Assembly (NCBI GenBank): GCA_012862575.1
Contig: BLSF01000034.1
Location: 317,712-381,711, forward strand
DNA from: Parietichytrium sp. I65-24A
Lineage: Eukaryota; Sar; Bigyra; Thraustochytrida; Thraustochytriidae
Reading direction: 5' to 3'
Length of the DNA: 64,000 nucleotides
The notes below the pieces were generated by a model. That model had not been told where the DNA came from, did no database searches, and saw only the letters and a list, made by a program, of their open reading frames with translations. This document shows, piece by piece, positions 5,779 through 10,647 of this stretch (positions within the stretch are counted from its first letter, which is position 1; every line of letters begins with the position of its first letter). The translations under genes and the position numbers were made by a program.

Positions 5779-8700
5779 CTATAAATTGTCAATGGCGTCC
5801 TCATCTGGAGCACCATTCTTCGTAGGACTATGAGGCGCTTGCCCTCGCGGCCGCTGATTAATAACGTCTTGGATTGGAATCTGGAAATTGAGCTGATTAC
5901 CTGTCCCGTAGGTCGGCCGACGACGGCGCCTGCTCGGACTGCTATTTCGCGAGCCTTCTGGCAGCCCCCCTGGTTGAAATCTGGAGCTCGTGTTGTTGCC
6001 CGTTGATGCACCAGCTCCGCTGTTGGAACTATTTCCTGAGCTAGTGCGACGTTGAAATCGGGGGTTAGAACTTGCTTGGGGGCTGCCTCCGTTTGAAAGA
6101 TTTCCTCCGCCCTCACCATTGGCGCCACCATTCGAAAAAACGGCTAGCGGACCAGGTGTCTTTGGGGACTCCAGGCGCGAACTTTTACCAGTAAGAAAAC
6201 CAGAGTTCAAGAGACCCCTGGGCGAAGAAGCTTGGCGCATGGAGGAGCCCCAGCGCTGCAGTTCGAAGACTGGCCGACTGGTCTCCGTGTCCACGTGGGT
6301 GTATTCCCGGATTGCCCCGACATTTCGAATGATGCCCAGATCCATCAGCTCCTGGATAGTGTTTTTGTGGTTTTGAACTAAAAAGTCCTCGTACAAAGTC
6401 TCCTCCAGGCTTCGCTCCTTGAACAGTAAATATCTCCTGCTCGGAATTCCAAGAACTTTTGCAGCCTTGGAGTTGTCCACGTATTCAGAGACCGTGTCCT
6501 CTTTAACGTTTCTAAAGACCAAGAACGCGTCCAAGAAGATCGCAAGCACAATACTGAGGATGTACAGATTGACGATGAGATTGAATGACAAAAAGTACGC
6601 CACCGACAAAGCCCACCAACCCCAATTATAGTCCACGCTCAGCGAACAAAGATATAAGACAGAGTTCCACTGCTCACCGGTCATCAGTTGGAAGACGGTG
6701 ATGAACGCGTGCGGGAAGTCCTTAAAGTCCGGCTCAACCCCACTTGGATGGTTGGTGTACTTGTTTTTGGAAAAGATATCCATTCCGAAGATTGTGAACC
6801 CGTACATGATCGTAAGCAGCAAGATAAGAATCGTAGCAAGGATGCGCTTCAGCTTGGAGCACACGAAAACGATGCCCCAAAGTGTAGGGATCAGCCTCAA
6901 CACACGGTAAATGTTGCATATCATCGCAATCTGCAGTGCGCTGAGGAACCCATTCACCCCGGAGGTGAGGTACAGCACGAACAGCAGCGCCTCTAGTGTA
7001 AGCAGTATTGCACGTCCCGCGAACAGGCGCCCAGACTTCAAGCTGCTCCGAATCGGGCCGCTCAAAGCAAGAATTATTGTTTCAATAAAAACAAACGAGA
7101 TATAGACACCAATAACGACCAGAATAATACTCAGGTCAATAATCCGAAAGAGCATAAGGAATCCGAGCATGAGCACCGTGAACCAATTTCCCAGACGCTG
7201 GAACCATATCGACTGCTTGATATTTTGAAATGGGCGGCGCGCAATTGTACAACCACATATTGACACATACGGAGAAATCTCCTCCTCAGCCTTCAGTTTG
7301 ATTTTCAGTTTGATGCTATCCACGATCTGAAAAAACTCTAATAGATCAATTGTCCCGTTTTCATCTTCGTCGAGAAGCTTCATGATGATTCGCGCGTCGC
7401 TCTTTGATGAAAAGGAGTGCAGCAGCTGGCTGACAATGTCTTCCGTCAGGAAATATTTGTCATCTACGTCCAAAATCTCGAATGCGGCCACGAGAGCTTT
7501 ACGCTCGGCAATTTTCCCCGCCATTAACCTTTCGCGTTGGCGCTTCTGAAGCGGCTCGTACACTAATGGGACCGCAATGCTTTGCAAGAACATGATCGTA
7601 ACAATCACAAAACTGACCCAGTAAATTGTTGACACAAACGGCATGTACTCATATGCCGGCCAAAGCAAATCCGGAAAGCTTTCTAATGTTGTCAAGACAT
7701 AGAGGTTCAGTCCAAGCCACGGAAAAGTGTCAATTCTATACATGTTCTCAGAGGAAGATGTGCTATTTCCCCAGAATCCGATCCTGTTCTCATTGTAGAG
7801 TTCCGGGTCAAAAATCACCACGCCGAGAAGCCCGTAAATACTGATTACAAAACAGTAGGTTGCAATCACGCCGAAGAAATTTTTGAATGTTGCGCACAAA
7901 TCTCCAAAAACGTTTCGCACACTCCTGCTGAGAAAAATGACCATCGACCAGCGTAAGTAGCGATCTAACCTGAAAGCTTCCCGGTACGCGATCGCCACGA
8001 TAATGTTGACGAGATTTCCAAGACAGATGAGCATGCGCAGGTGAAAGATCCAGCTCCGCAGCGACCTTGGCTCACGGAGCGTTGCCCAGGAACGGATAAT
8101 TTGTAATTCGCGCATCCCATACGTGTAAAATGTGAGCAGACCATCGAAGATGAAAACGAGGGTGAAGAAGAAGTCCAGGCCCAGGGCAACCGAATAAGAA
8201 GGAAACTCGGCGACGTAGGCTTTGGTCATGCCGATCGTGGACACAGGCTCTAGAAACGGCAAAAGAATCATCTGTATTGCCAGCAAAAGGTATAGCGTCA
8301 GCTTCCATACCCGTGAATGCTTGAGTCGATACACAGTCAGAGGCAATCCTCGAACCCGGTGAAGCTTTGGTTCGCGGTTCTCAATGGCATCAATGAGCCA
8401 AAGCTCTGCGAGTTCGAGACGCCTCTCGTGGGTCAGTTCGCCAAGATCAGTAGCGCGACGATTTTTCTCGCCAGTGCTAAATCGTTTGGCAAAGCGGCGT
8501 CCCATTGCCCGTAACTTTCCATTCCGATATGAATAAGCTTCCCCTGTGGGGATATAGTGCGGATTGGTTATTTTACTCTTTTGCCAAAATCGGACGTCGC
8601 TCAGGCTCTCAGGCTCCTCCTTCGAATCGTCGGGATCCCGAAGCATCCCCATGTTGCTCATACCAAACCGAGGCAGTTCGATCCTGGACAACGCAGTCTG

Positions 8701-10647
8701 TAGGTTGAGACGCGGCTTTGGAGAAGGCTCCTCCTCGTCGGTTTGTATCCGAAGCTCCATCGCCGGAGTAGACTGAAAGGAGACTCGGCGGTTCAACACA
8801 GACAGCCGCTTAACTGATTCGCTTGGCCCATTTGGCGACATTCCTTCCACGGAAGAATGTGCGCGTGCAGGAAGACGTCGGATATCGGGACGCCATTCGG
8901 GTGATTTCACTTTTGGCTCCAGCTTGTTGCTAAGCACATATTCCGTAAATTTGTCCGCCTCCTCATCTTCAGTCTCTGGTCTGGCCATTTCTTTGTCATC
9001 GTCAGAAAGTTTAGCACCAGCTATATCCTTCGTATTTACCCGAAGGCTTATGGCTCCAAGTTCGATTTCCGTATCCGAAAGAGTGTGCCGCAGCCCCTCT
9101 GCTTTTTCCTCTCCTTCCTCAAATGAGTCGCCGCTGCTTTCGCGAATCGTAAACGCACTTGACCTTCGAAGCTTGGAAGAGCCGCTGTCCTCCGACCTCA
9201 ACTTTTGATCATAGGCGGCATCTTCCTCCGCTATAGCCTCGCTGATAGGACGAAATCCGCTCATTTTGCCGTTTCGAGCTGCACTGCCGCTCACTCCGTC
9301 TTTATCACCATGACGACCATTGTGACTTTCATCTACGCGCAGCAATGCATTCAGCAAATACTCGTGGTTGGTACTTAGCGAATTGTTCACAAGAATTTTC
9401 GGCTCGGTCTGAAGCGATTCACTTTGCGGTCTGAGCTCCGCAGAAGAGGATGCAGAAGAAGAAGCCAACTTTGCTAACATCGGAGTTCCTTCTGCCTGAG
9501 CTCTTGAATGTACGGCAGCGGCAGCTTTGGCATCCTTGTGAGACCTGTGATGTCCATTGCTAGCATGATCGGGAGCTGAAACGCCCCTCTCTTCTTCGGC
9601 GCGTGCGCTTGCTTTCATTCTGTTCAATTGCGCTTGCATGACTGCAGCTGGTCGGTAATTGATTAGGATGGCCACAAGAGGTGACATAGCAAACCCCAAA
9701 TTAAATATTTTGGTGAAGAAGTCCAAAAAGAACAATGACTCGGGAATTGGATTCCGGACATCCTGTGCCTCCACAAGGTATTGAATATTAATGACCAGCA
9801 ACCCTACCATGTCCATGGCTAGAAAGAGCAAAAGAACCCAAATCATGCTCCGAATATACATTAAGGTCGCCTCCGAGGCCCTTGGGCTAACGTAATTCCG
9901 CGGGAGAGAGTGTAAGAGAACCGACATCCTCAAGCTTGTTACGGTGAACAAGCAGATCTGCACACCAACTTCCAGCGAGTAATAAACTTGTGGCAGAATT
10001 GTATTGAGCAATGCGTCTTTGCTCAGACCAAACTGCATGAGCATGTAAGCCGGAAACTGCAGCAGAGAATATACGGCATAGATTTTAAACTCCCAACTTG
10101 AGGTTGAGGGCTGTGGCACGATGTTGCGCAGGGCATAGTTCAAAGCTGCAATGAGCAAAAATAGCGCATTCGACCGAACCATGCAGCCAATATTGAAGAG
10201 GGTGTTGGCAGCTGGGACCAAGACGTCTCTGTTGTATGAAGAAATGAATTGCGAGCCTGCTCTCGGGACAATGCCATCGAGGCAGCTCGAGGCGACCAAA
10301 TGTGTGCAATTAAACACCACCGAGCCGGCCTCCGGCTCTTCGCACGATTCCACGCAAGTGTCTATGTACCCCTCGTCGTACTTGGCAAAGGTCGAAATCG
10401 AATCGGACGTGATCACCAACGCAAGTGCCACCAGCAGCAGCAGGCATATAATCGCCTTGAAGTTATACTCCCTCACCCGCGACCACCTCAGGTCGCCGCA
10501 TGCCGTTCCCACCACGAAGCAATAGAAGAACACCAGGCAGAAGATCAGCGCATTCATCAGCACGCTGTCAATGTAGCTGTACGGCGACAGGTGCGTCATT
10601 TTCGCGCTCGCCTTAAACACCTCTTTCCTTCTTTCCTTCCTCAACAA
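5779..10647 (-). CDS. Two-repeat cation channel (TPC-like) with EF-hand linker and N-terminal multi-TM module
   Basis: Single open frame of 1622 aa, about twice the length of canonical two-pore channels. Residues 28-330 carry about seven hydrophobic segments (near 29-48, 64-81, 145-170, 188-205, 219-243, 265-288, 306-330) with a Cys-bearing loop at 98-122. Residues 340-740 are a Ser/Glu-rich disordered linker. Transmembrane repeat I starts near 775; its pore stretch LTTLESFPDLLWPAYEYM resembles the TPC filter (N-x-P-D-V-x-x-P-A-Y). Two EF-hands follow at about 1055-1100: a degenerate ILDVDDKYFLTED and a good DEDENGTIDLLEF. Repeat II has Arg residues in S4 (IYRVLRLIP) and a Ca-channel-like pore FQLMTGEQWN near 1319. 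The last 180 residues are Ser/Gly/Asn-rich. I infer a Ca2+-regulated, voltage-dependent cation channel of an internal or plasma membrane. The N-terminal module is not part of known TPCs. Confidence 0.88.
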   Translation of the reverse strand: MLRKERRKEVFKASAKMTHLSPYSYIDSVLMNALIFCLVFFYCFVVGTACGDLRWSRVREYNFKAIICLLLLVALALVITSDSISTFAKYDEGYIDTCVESCEEPEAGSVVFNCTHLVASSCLDGIVPRAGSQFISSYNRDVLVPAANTLFNIGCMVRSNALFLLIAALNYALRNIVPQPSTSSWEFKIYAVYSLLQFPAYMLMQFGLSKDALLNTILPQVYYSLEVGVQICLFTVTSLRMSVLLHSLPRNYVSPRASEATLMYIRSMIWVLLLFLAMDMVGLLVINIQYLVEAQDVRNPIPESLFFLDFFTKIFNLGFAMSPLVAILINYRPAAVMQAQLNRMKASARAEEERGVSAPDHASNGHHRSHKDAKAAAAVHSRAQAEGTPMLAKLASSSASSSAELRPQSESLQTEPKILVNNSLSTNHEYLLNALLRVDESHNGRHGDKDGVSGSAARNGKMSGFRPISEAIAEEDAAYDQKLRSEDSGSSKLRRSSAFTIRESSGDSFEEGEEKAEGLRHTLSDTEIELGAISLRVNTKDIAGAKLSDDDKEMARPETEDEEADKFTEYVLSNKLEPKVKSPEWRPDIRRLPARAHSSVEGMSPNGPSESVKRLSVLNRRVSFQSTPAMELRIQTDEEEPSPKPRLNLQTALSRIELPRFGMSNMGMLRDPDDSKEEPESLSDVRFWQKSKITNPHYIPTGEAYSYRNGKLRAMGRRFAKRFSTGEKNRRATDLGELTHERRLELAELWLIDAIENREPKLHRVRGLPLTVYRLKHSRVWKLTLYLLLAIQMILLPFLEPVSTIGMTKAYVAEFPSYSVALGLDFFFTLVFIFDGLLTFYTYGMRELQIIRSWATLREPRSLRSWIFHLRMLICLGNLVNIIVAIAYREAFRLDRYLRWSMVIFLSRSVRNVFGDLCATFKNFFGVIATYCFVISIYGLLGVVIFDPELYNENRIGFWGNSTSSSENMYRIDTFPWLGLNLYVLTTLESFPDLLWPAYEYMPFVSTIYWVSFVIVTIMFLQSIAVPLVYEPLQKRQRERLMAGKIAERKALVAAFEILDVDDKYFLTEDIVSQLLHSFSSKSDARIIMKLLDEDENGTIDLLEFFQIVDSIKLKIKLKAEEEISPYVSICGCTIARRPFQNIKQSIWFQRLGNWFTVLMLGFLMLFRIIDLSIILVVIGVYISFVFIETIILALSGPIRSSLKSGRLFAGRAILLTLEALLFVLYLTSGVNGFLSALQIAMICNIYRVLRLIPTLWGIVFVCSKLKRILATILILLLTIMYGFTIFGMDIFSKNKYTNHPSGVEPDFKDFPHAFITVFQLMTGEQWNSVLYLCSLSVDYNWGWWALSVAYFLSFNLIVNLYILSIVLAIFLDAFLVFRNVKEDTVSEYVDNSKAAKVLGIPSRRYLLFKERSLEETLYEDFLVQNHKNTIQELMDLGIIRNVGAIREYTHVDTETSRPVFELQRWGSSMRQASSPRGLLNSGFLTGKSSRLESPKTPGPLAVFSNGGANGEGGGNLSNGGSPQASSNPRFQRRTSSGNSSNSGAGASTGNNTSSRFQPGGLPEGSRNSSPSRRRRRPTYGTGNQLNFQIPIQDVINQRPRGQAPHSPTKNGAPDEDAIDNL

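Follow-up and report, generated by a model that had tools for sequence, protein, structure and literature searches.

A seven-TM-like membrane module joined in one reading frame to a putative, divergent TPC-family channel in Parietichytrium sp. I65-24A

The window analysed here, the whole 64,000-nucleotide stretch of DNA (C34:317712-381711; the assembly has 172 contigs and totals 42.5 Mb), carries on its minus strand a frame whose product is, as judged from its sequence, laid out as a seven-TM-like module, a linker of about 400 residues and two 6-TM repeats separated by an EF-hand pair. This unusual architecture, on what appears to be a divergent channel of the TPC family, is genuine, and there is little doubt that a single gene encodes a natural one-protein fusion of membrane module, linker and channel. 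The best explanation as a whole, which we favour with moderate confidence, is a 7TM-like module tethered via the linker to a TPC-family channel and working by the steps proposed below.

Layout of the frame and the N-terminal module

The open frame (5779..10647, minus strand) is intact and complete, with 1622 codons and a stop, in agreement with the single continuous frame claimed in a preliminary description. Its first codon is TTG, at 10647, with an in-frame TAG immediately 5' of it, and residues are numbered here from this codon as residue 1. Translation likely starts at the ATG at 10599 (Met17), since a paralogue of the module begins with an identical MTHLSxxSYxD. The window is eukaryotic, as judged by gene content and GT-AG introns, and eight of the nine flanking frames scanned have Pfam matches, like ordinary nuclear genes (PI3/4-kinase, TPR, carnitine acyltransferase, kinase, ankyrin/F-box, CAP-Gly, RCC1 and NYN families). 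As for lineage markers, the matches to PfaD and elicitin both stayed below cut-off. Within the N-terminal module the segment boundaries are approximate, and residues called invariant are those identical in both copies, i.e. the window protein and the paralogue:

5779..10599, minus strand: probable coding sequence from the ATG (residue 17), 1606 aa; the paralogue has a matching start
9652..10599, minus strand: seven-TM-like module (residues 17-332), probably N-out/C-in, from hydropathy and paralogue
10501..10566, minus strand: TM1, from hydropathy
10402..10464, minus strand: TM2, with invariant D82 at its end, from hydropathy and paralogue alignment
10216..10401, minus strand: luminal or extracellular loop with four Cys and one N-glycosylation sequon, from hydropathy
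10141..10215, minus strand: TM3, with C155 and R158 invariant, from hydropathy and paralogue alignment
10030..10089, minus strand: TM4, from hydropathy
9928..9999, minus strand: TM5, with E226 invariant, from hydropathy and paralogue alignment
9781..9855, minus strand: TM6, with a conserved acid at 279 (D here, E in the paralogue), from hydropathy and paralogue alignment
9661..9732, minus strand: TM7, with D309-x3-K313 and P323 invariant, from hydropathy and paralogue alignment

An N-terminal membrane module of some 330 residues with roughly seven segments had been described earlier, and is borne out by the paralogue and by hydropathy averaged over the two proteins, which gives seven segments on the GES scale and six on the Kyte-Doolittle scale (thresholds and TM bounds being our own choice). 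In the window module, Lys and Arg residues number 11 in the supposed cytosolic loops against 5 in the luminal loops, the paralogue having 17 and 8, respectively. N-glycosylation sequons occur after TM2, where the loop of the window protein contains one and that of the paralogue three, although one further sequon of the paralogue falls in a loop assigned to the cytosol, contrary to an N-out/C-in arrangement. On balance this topology is nevertheless the probable one, and would place the C-terminal linker in the cytosol, where the N-termini of TPCs lie. Of the two checks that the preliminary description had proposed for this region, topology prediction thus fits N-out/C-in as regards loop charges and sequons but yields six segments on one scale, whilst structure prediction produced no usable fold (AlphaFold2 without alignment, pLDDT 44.0, too poor for fold assignment). 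The loop it had termed Cys-rich deserves that name only modestly, because the four Cys of the window protein are reduced to two in the paralogue.

The paralogue, the only one found by searching the genome with the module (E 2.2e-15 for one exon and 6.6e-6 for the other), is a separate gene of 444 aa with one intron at G000:C32 (L004 3856-5272), and aligns to the window protein with 103 bits and 24% identity over 440 columns in pairwise BLASTP. Its stop follows a short tail past TM7 with no channel attached, and the adjacent frame, on the opposite strand, is not a channel (we take it to be peptidase-like). Because this free-standing copy has its own stop and lacks a channel, the module is on sequence grounds a discrete, separable membrane domain of an orphan 7TM-like family. 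Searches against Pfam, NCBIfam and PDB sequences gave no significant match to the module (weak, below-cut-off matches to CrgA and TMEM192 in Pfam/NCBIfam were treated as chance), and pattern-seeded scans of viral contigs and genome contigs confirmed no relatives.

The term 'receptor-like' from the preliminary description is not supported: no 7TM receptor family was significantly matched among Pfam families and PDB sequences, and none of the genome's own Dicty_CAR-like, Frizzled-like, PIPK-linked and rhodopsin proteins matched the module convincingly, the 7TM proteins reaching at most 3.1 bits. The first three (C13, C74 and C21) were rejected as kin at hhalign probabilities of 0.1-0.2%, the best being C74 with 3.1 bits, E 0.0098 (in a search of no more than three sequences) and a BLASTP value of 0.17. 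As observations in their own right, L037:54-3395 (G000:C74) combines a Cys-rich ectodomain with a 7TM region that has a Dicty_CAR match and is Frizzled-like by eye, and L035:2060-5431 (G000:C21) resembles GPCR-PIPK in combining multiple TM segments with a C-terminal PIP5K domain.

As to function, the tethered module would either sense something luminal or extracellular or serve as a built-in accessory subunit, biasing the opening, location or assembly of the channel by way of the linker and the N-terminal region of the TPC part. The whole is most likely a putative Ca2+-activated Ca2+ channel to which a candidate sensor or accessory domain is attached, the two roles of that domain being about equally likely. 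That the candidate module is a sensor rather than a passive accessory can be proposed only tentatively. The charged residues in the TM segments of the window module, which include D82, R158, E226, the acid at 279, D309 and K313, keep their sign in the paralogue in 10 of 10 cases, whereas in loops 14 of 35 do so (p 0.0007). We see in this moderate evidence that the module has a functional polar core, although the same comparison is significant only when counted from the window side (from the paralogue, 10/21 in TM segments vs 14/39 in loops, p 0.42); moreover, a domain that also exists without a channel should have a function of its own. Both points speak against a passive, built-in accessory or targeting subunit involved in assembly, trafficking or anchoring, a reading that is advanced with equal reserve and draws on three considerations: some 400 hydrophilic linker residues without a Pfam domain argue against rigid coupling, the module bears no known ligand-site signature, and animal TPC N-termini govern traffic, according to a title cited in PMC4879148.

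The channel core and its kinship

The elements of the channel core, all of which lie downstream of the linker, are as follows:

8248..8415, minus strand: TPC-type pre-S1 region running into S1 (residues 745-800), from a profile search
7531..8313, minus strand: channel repeat I (Ion_trans), from Pfam
7651..7692, minus strand: pore I TTLESFPDLLWPAY with filter Glu989, from alignment
7324..7500, minus strand: EF-hand pair between the repeats, from Pfam and by eye
6523..7125, minus strand: channel repeat II (Ion_trans), from Pfam
6667..6684, minus strand: pore II MTGEQW with filter Glu1325, from alignment

Pfam places two Ion_trans repeats in one chain (4.3e-27), and only two, in place of the four of the Cav layout. 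The channel is very probably a divergent member of the TPC family, as judged from the placement of repeat I in a tree and the associated AU rejections, the pre-S1 region, the PD-x3-PAY motif and the pattern of S4 in repeat I; the TPC-like core of the preliminary description is upheld on these grounds. A tree was built from 29 repeats, of which five four-repeat channels of the same genome contributed 20, its canonical TPC two, TPC stretches from the PDB five and the window two. In it, repeat I groups with the five TPC I rows at a support of 100/97, whilst repeat II falls into a group of Cav II, Cav IV and TPC II (92/92) with no finer placement. By AU tests performed once the tree was known, a grouping of repeat I with Cav III (0.030), Cav I (0.023) or Cav IV (0.006) of the same genome is rejected; for repeat II, TPC II (p 0.10) and Cav II (0.23) are both compatible with the data. 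Both window branches are very long (2.75 and 2.53), and the tree is therefore to be read as support and not as proof. A pre-S1 profile built from three TPC regions and searched against 559 entries, 300 of them shuffles (the best of these at 0.044), found the window protein as next best after the training protein, at residues 745-800 with E 0.0037 and a domain E of 0.017 (the five top rows being this one protein in overlapping loci); the match is weak and sits exactly where expected. Pore I retains the TPC motif PD-x3-PAY, and S4 of repeat I stops at three arginines, a pattern shared with the five TPC I rows; a fourth is present in 10 of 10 Cav I and III rows. S4 of repeat II has two arginines only.

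Several comparisons nevertheless point towards half of a Cav-type channel. The filter is of EEEE type; a PDB search with the whole protein ranks Cav channels (2.3e-17) above TPC1 (1.7e-10); repeat II is not separated from Cav II; and the phmmer ranking of the 29 rows for repeat I is headed by a Cav IV repeat (19.8 bits), closely followed by mouse TPC1 I (19.3), so that phmmer does not tell the two apart. The highest identity of repeat I in the tree alignment, 20%, is to a Cav III repeat, and repeat I together with the EF-hands matched EF-hand proteins and a T-type Cav (0.025) in the PDB, with no TPC among the best 60 of 93; repeat I alone matched no PDB sequence. Set against the clade of repeat I, the AU rejections, the TPC-type pre-S1 region, PD-x3-PAY and an S4-I without the fourth Arg, as well as an EF-hand pair between two repeats like that described for plant TPC1 and diatom TPCs in the available text of PMC4879148 and PMC11085791, a Cav-type half-channel in place of a TPC is improbable. 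The EF-hand pair (residues 1050-1108) has the plant-type arrangement in sequence, i.e. two between the repeats with the second intact, at a Pfam score below the cut-off of 30 (24.6 bits, 3.3e-5); by eye, the EF2 loop DEDENGTIDLLE is canonical and the EF1 loop degenerate.

The filter column holds Glu in both repeats (TLES/TGEQW), whereas the TPC rows compared have Ala or Cys in repeat I (5 rows) and Asn in repeat II (2 rows), so that the non-acidic filters of plant and animal TPC rows are replaced here by E989 and E1325. A non-acidic filter is not a strict TPC requirement, because acidic TPC filters are reported in Salpingoeca (PMC6259924) and an acidic filter residue in diatom TPCL (PMC11085791), in the portions of both papers at hand. 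For the putative TPC-family channel, two subunits would dimerise into a pseudo-tetrameric pore with a Cav-like EEEE ring and, since the dimer would present four glutamates, a Ca2+-selective pore is predicted. EF-hand 2 would confer activation by cytosolic Ca2+, by analogy with plant TPC1, which is opened by cytosolic Ca2+ binding to the second EF-hand and whose N-terminal region contacts the EF-hands (PMC4879148, in the part available), and the thin S4 of repeat II would make for weaker voltage control. An AlphaFold2 model of the channel without alignment was too poor for use (pLDDT 41.8).

The same genome encodes a canonical TPC at C64 (L021:3550-6313), which resembles the window protein in having two repeats and in its TPC repeat I clade, and differs in having a short N-terminus (MGERERLLLGG...), no module, other filters (TCNSPKVMLPAF and VVNDW, animal-like) and no Pfam EF-hand match; it has one intron, before S6-II. 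The N-terminus of the C64 protein contains LLL, possibly a dileucine sorting signal. A separate membrane block ahead of the core was found in none of 16 other channel loci (the C64 TPC included; the genome listing has 98 Ion_trans matches), compared by hydropathy on unspliced frames, three of them (L042-L044) cut at the 5' side. Extra segments occur in L029 and L044 (one each), in L042 (three, adjoining its partial match) and in L041 (eight), the last being read as channel repeats because Pfam finds four Ion_trans there. Among these channels, L041:157-6999 (G000:C1) has four Ion_trans and three cyclic-nucleotide-binding stretches in one frame and appears to be a tandem CNG-type channel. L032 (G000:C56) is a four-repeat channel with A/A/K/D in the filter column instead of four acids, with a local gap at repeat II.

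The linker and the continuity of the frame

8419..9615, minus strand: linker of about 400 residues, hydrophilic and S/E/A/R-rich, with five [RK]Rx[ST] sites and no Pfam match
5782..6462, minus strand: C-terminal tail, S/G/N-rich, its only Pfam match being KwaB (0.029, below cut-off)

The linker is coding, as the preliminary description had supposed in reporting some 400 residues between module and core. Residues 345-762 (418 codons) contain no in-frame stop (P 1.7e-9), whereas the same strand, read in its other two frames, has 18 and 20 stops there. When the codon score is compared across all six frames, the coding frame comes first in each of the 11 linker windows (those starting at codons 321-721) and in 35 of the 39 windows in total. 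The architecture would be an illusion of annotation if two neighbouring genes shared one frame, with separate transcripts or an internal start in the linker, and the paralogue does end soon after TM7, in a short tail of the kind expected from a gene of its own; the stop-free codons and the codon signal throughout the linker make this very unlikely.

In the fusion that we favour, the linker is apparently disordered and cytosolic. Its five [RK]Rx[ST] sites exceed the 0.97 expected by shuffling (p 0.0015), none being found in the tail of the paralogue, and a phospho-switch at these sites is plausible from the sequence.

Known systems and the question of reception

To our knowledge, no TPC has a second membrane domain, and a TPC with a 7TM module was absent from the open-access literature among the matches listed. 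There is a close likeness to Arabidopsis TPC1 and the diatom TPC1 group, which share the two 6-TM repeats and the EF-hand pair in the I-II linker with its second loop intact (diatom TPC1s carry EF-hands according to the accessible part of PMC11085791), the AtTPC1 chain also having PD-x3-PAY in pore I. Compared with the plant and diatom proteins, the window protein adds the 7TM-like module and the linker and has only two arginines in S4-II; plant filters are without acidic residues (PMC4879148, in the part available), in contrast to its two glutamates.

The order of N-terminal 7TM-like domain, cytosolic stretch and effector recalls the GPCR-bigrams of oomycetes and other protists (GPCR-PIPK, -TKL, -INPP, -AC and -PDE), whose effectors are catalytic in the available text of PMC6033456 and PMC5784254. 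Here the effector is an ion channel and not a catalytic domain, so the definition of a bigram does not extend to the window protein, and the PIPK-linked protein of the same genome bears no convincing similarity to the module. A Phytophthora infestans survey retained proteins with 5-9 TM segments and discarded ion channels (PMC5784254), and on this part of its account a protein of the 7TM-channel type would therefore be missed. Oomycetes also have PKDRR fused channels and, in some cases, several TPCN homologues (PMC4820453, in the part available); PKDRR channels are likewise lineage-specific fusions of a domain with a Ca2+ channel, but combine a polycystin channel with RyR domains and have no 7TM module.

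Should the module gate the pore, the fusion would be a compact natural design leading from 7TM sensor to Ca2+ flux in one chain. The coupling of a module signal to the channel, i.e. the one-protein signalling unit of the preliminary description, is something we infer, and receptor function of the fusion is a testable hypothesis, not a result. A full receptor-channel, in which a luminal or extracellular ligand, or light via a chromophore on Lys313 of TM7, acts on the 7TM module and directly gates the EEEE, Ca2+-activated two-pore channel, is rather unlikely; if true, Ca2+ release or entry would be receptor-operated and need no G protein. The double-glutamate filter on a TPC-type scaffold bears both on the origin of four-repeat Ca2+ channels from two-repeat channels and on the determinants of TPC selectivity.

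Bestrhodopsins, natural rhodopsin-bestrophin fusions in which a 7TM sensor is joined to a channel, are a parallel for the natural fusion of a 7TM domain with a channel, and differ in that their channel belongs to another superfamily and no rhodopsin similarity was detected in the module. That the module is a divergent retinal-binding (rhodopsin-type) 7TM domain, making a light-gated channel, is most improbable: the invariant D309-x3-K313 of TM7 and Arg of TM3 recall D212/K216/R82 of bacteriorhodopsin and the [SG]DLL[AS]K of the last helix and GRYL of the third in the genome's three microbial rhodopsins, but the module has no PF01036 match, scores 0.2 bits against a profile of these three (hhalign probability 0.15%), lacks the Trp and Thr-x-Pro present after GRYL in each of them, and in both copies has 19 residues from the Lys to the next cytosolic basic residue, against 11 in the rhodopsins. 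The three rhodopsins (L045, L046 and L047; G000:C22, C16 and C101) have, beyond their last helix, a stretch that looks receiver-like (ILVIEPR...QRLF, for example), and by eye they resemble channelrhodopsins.
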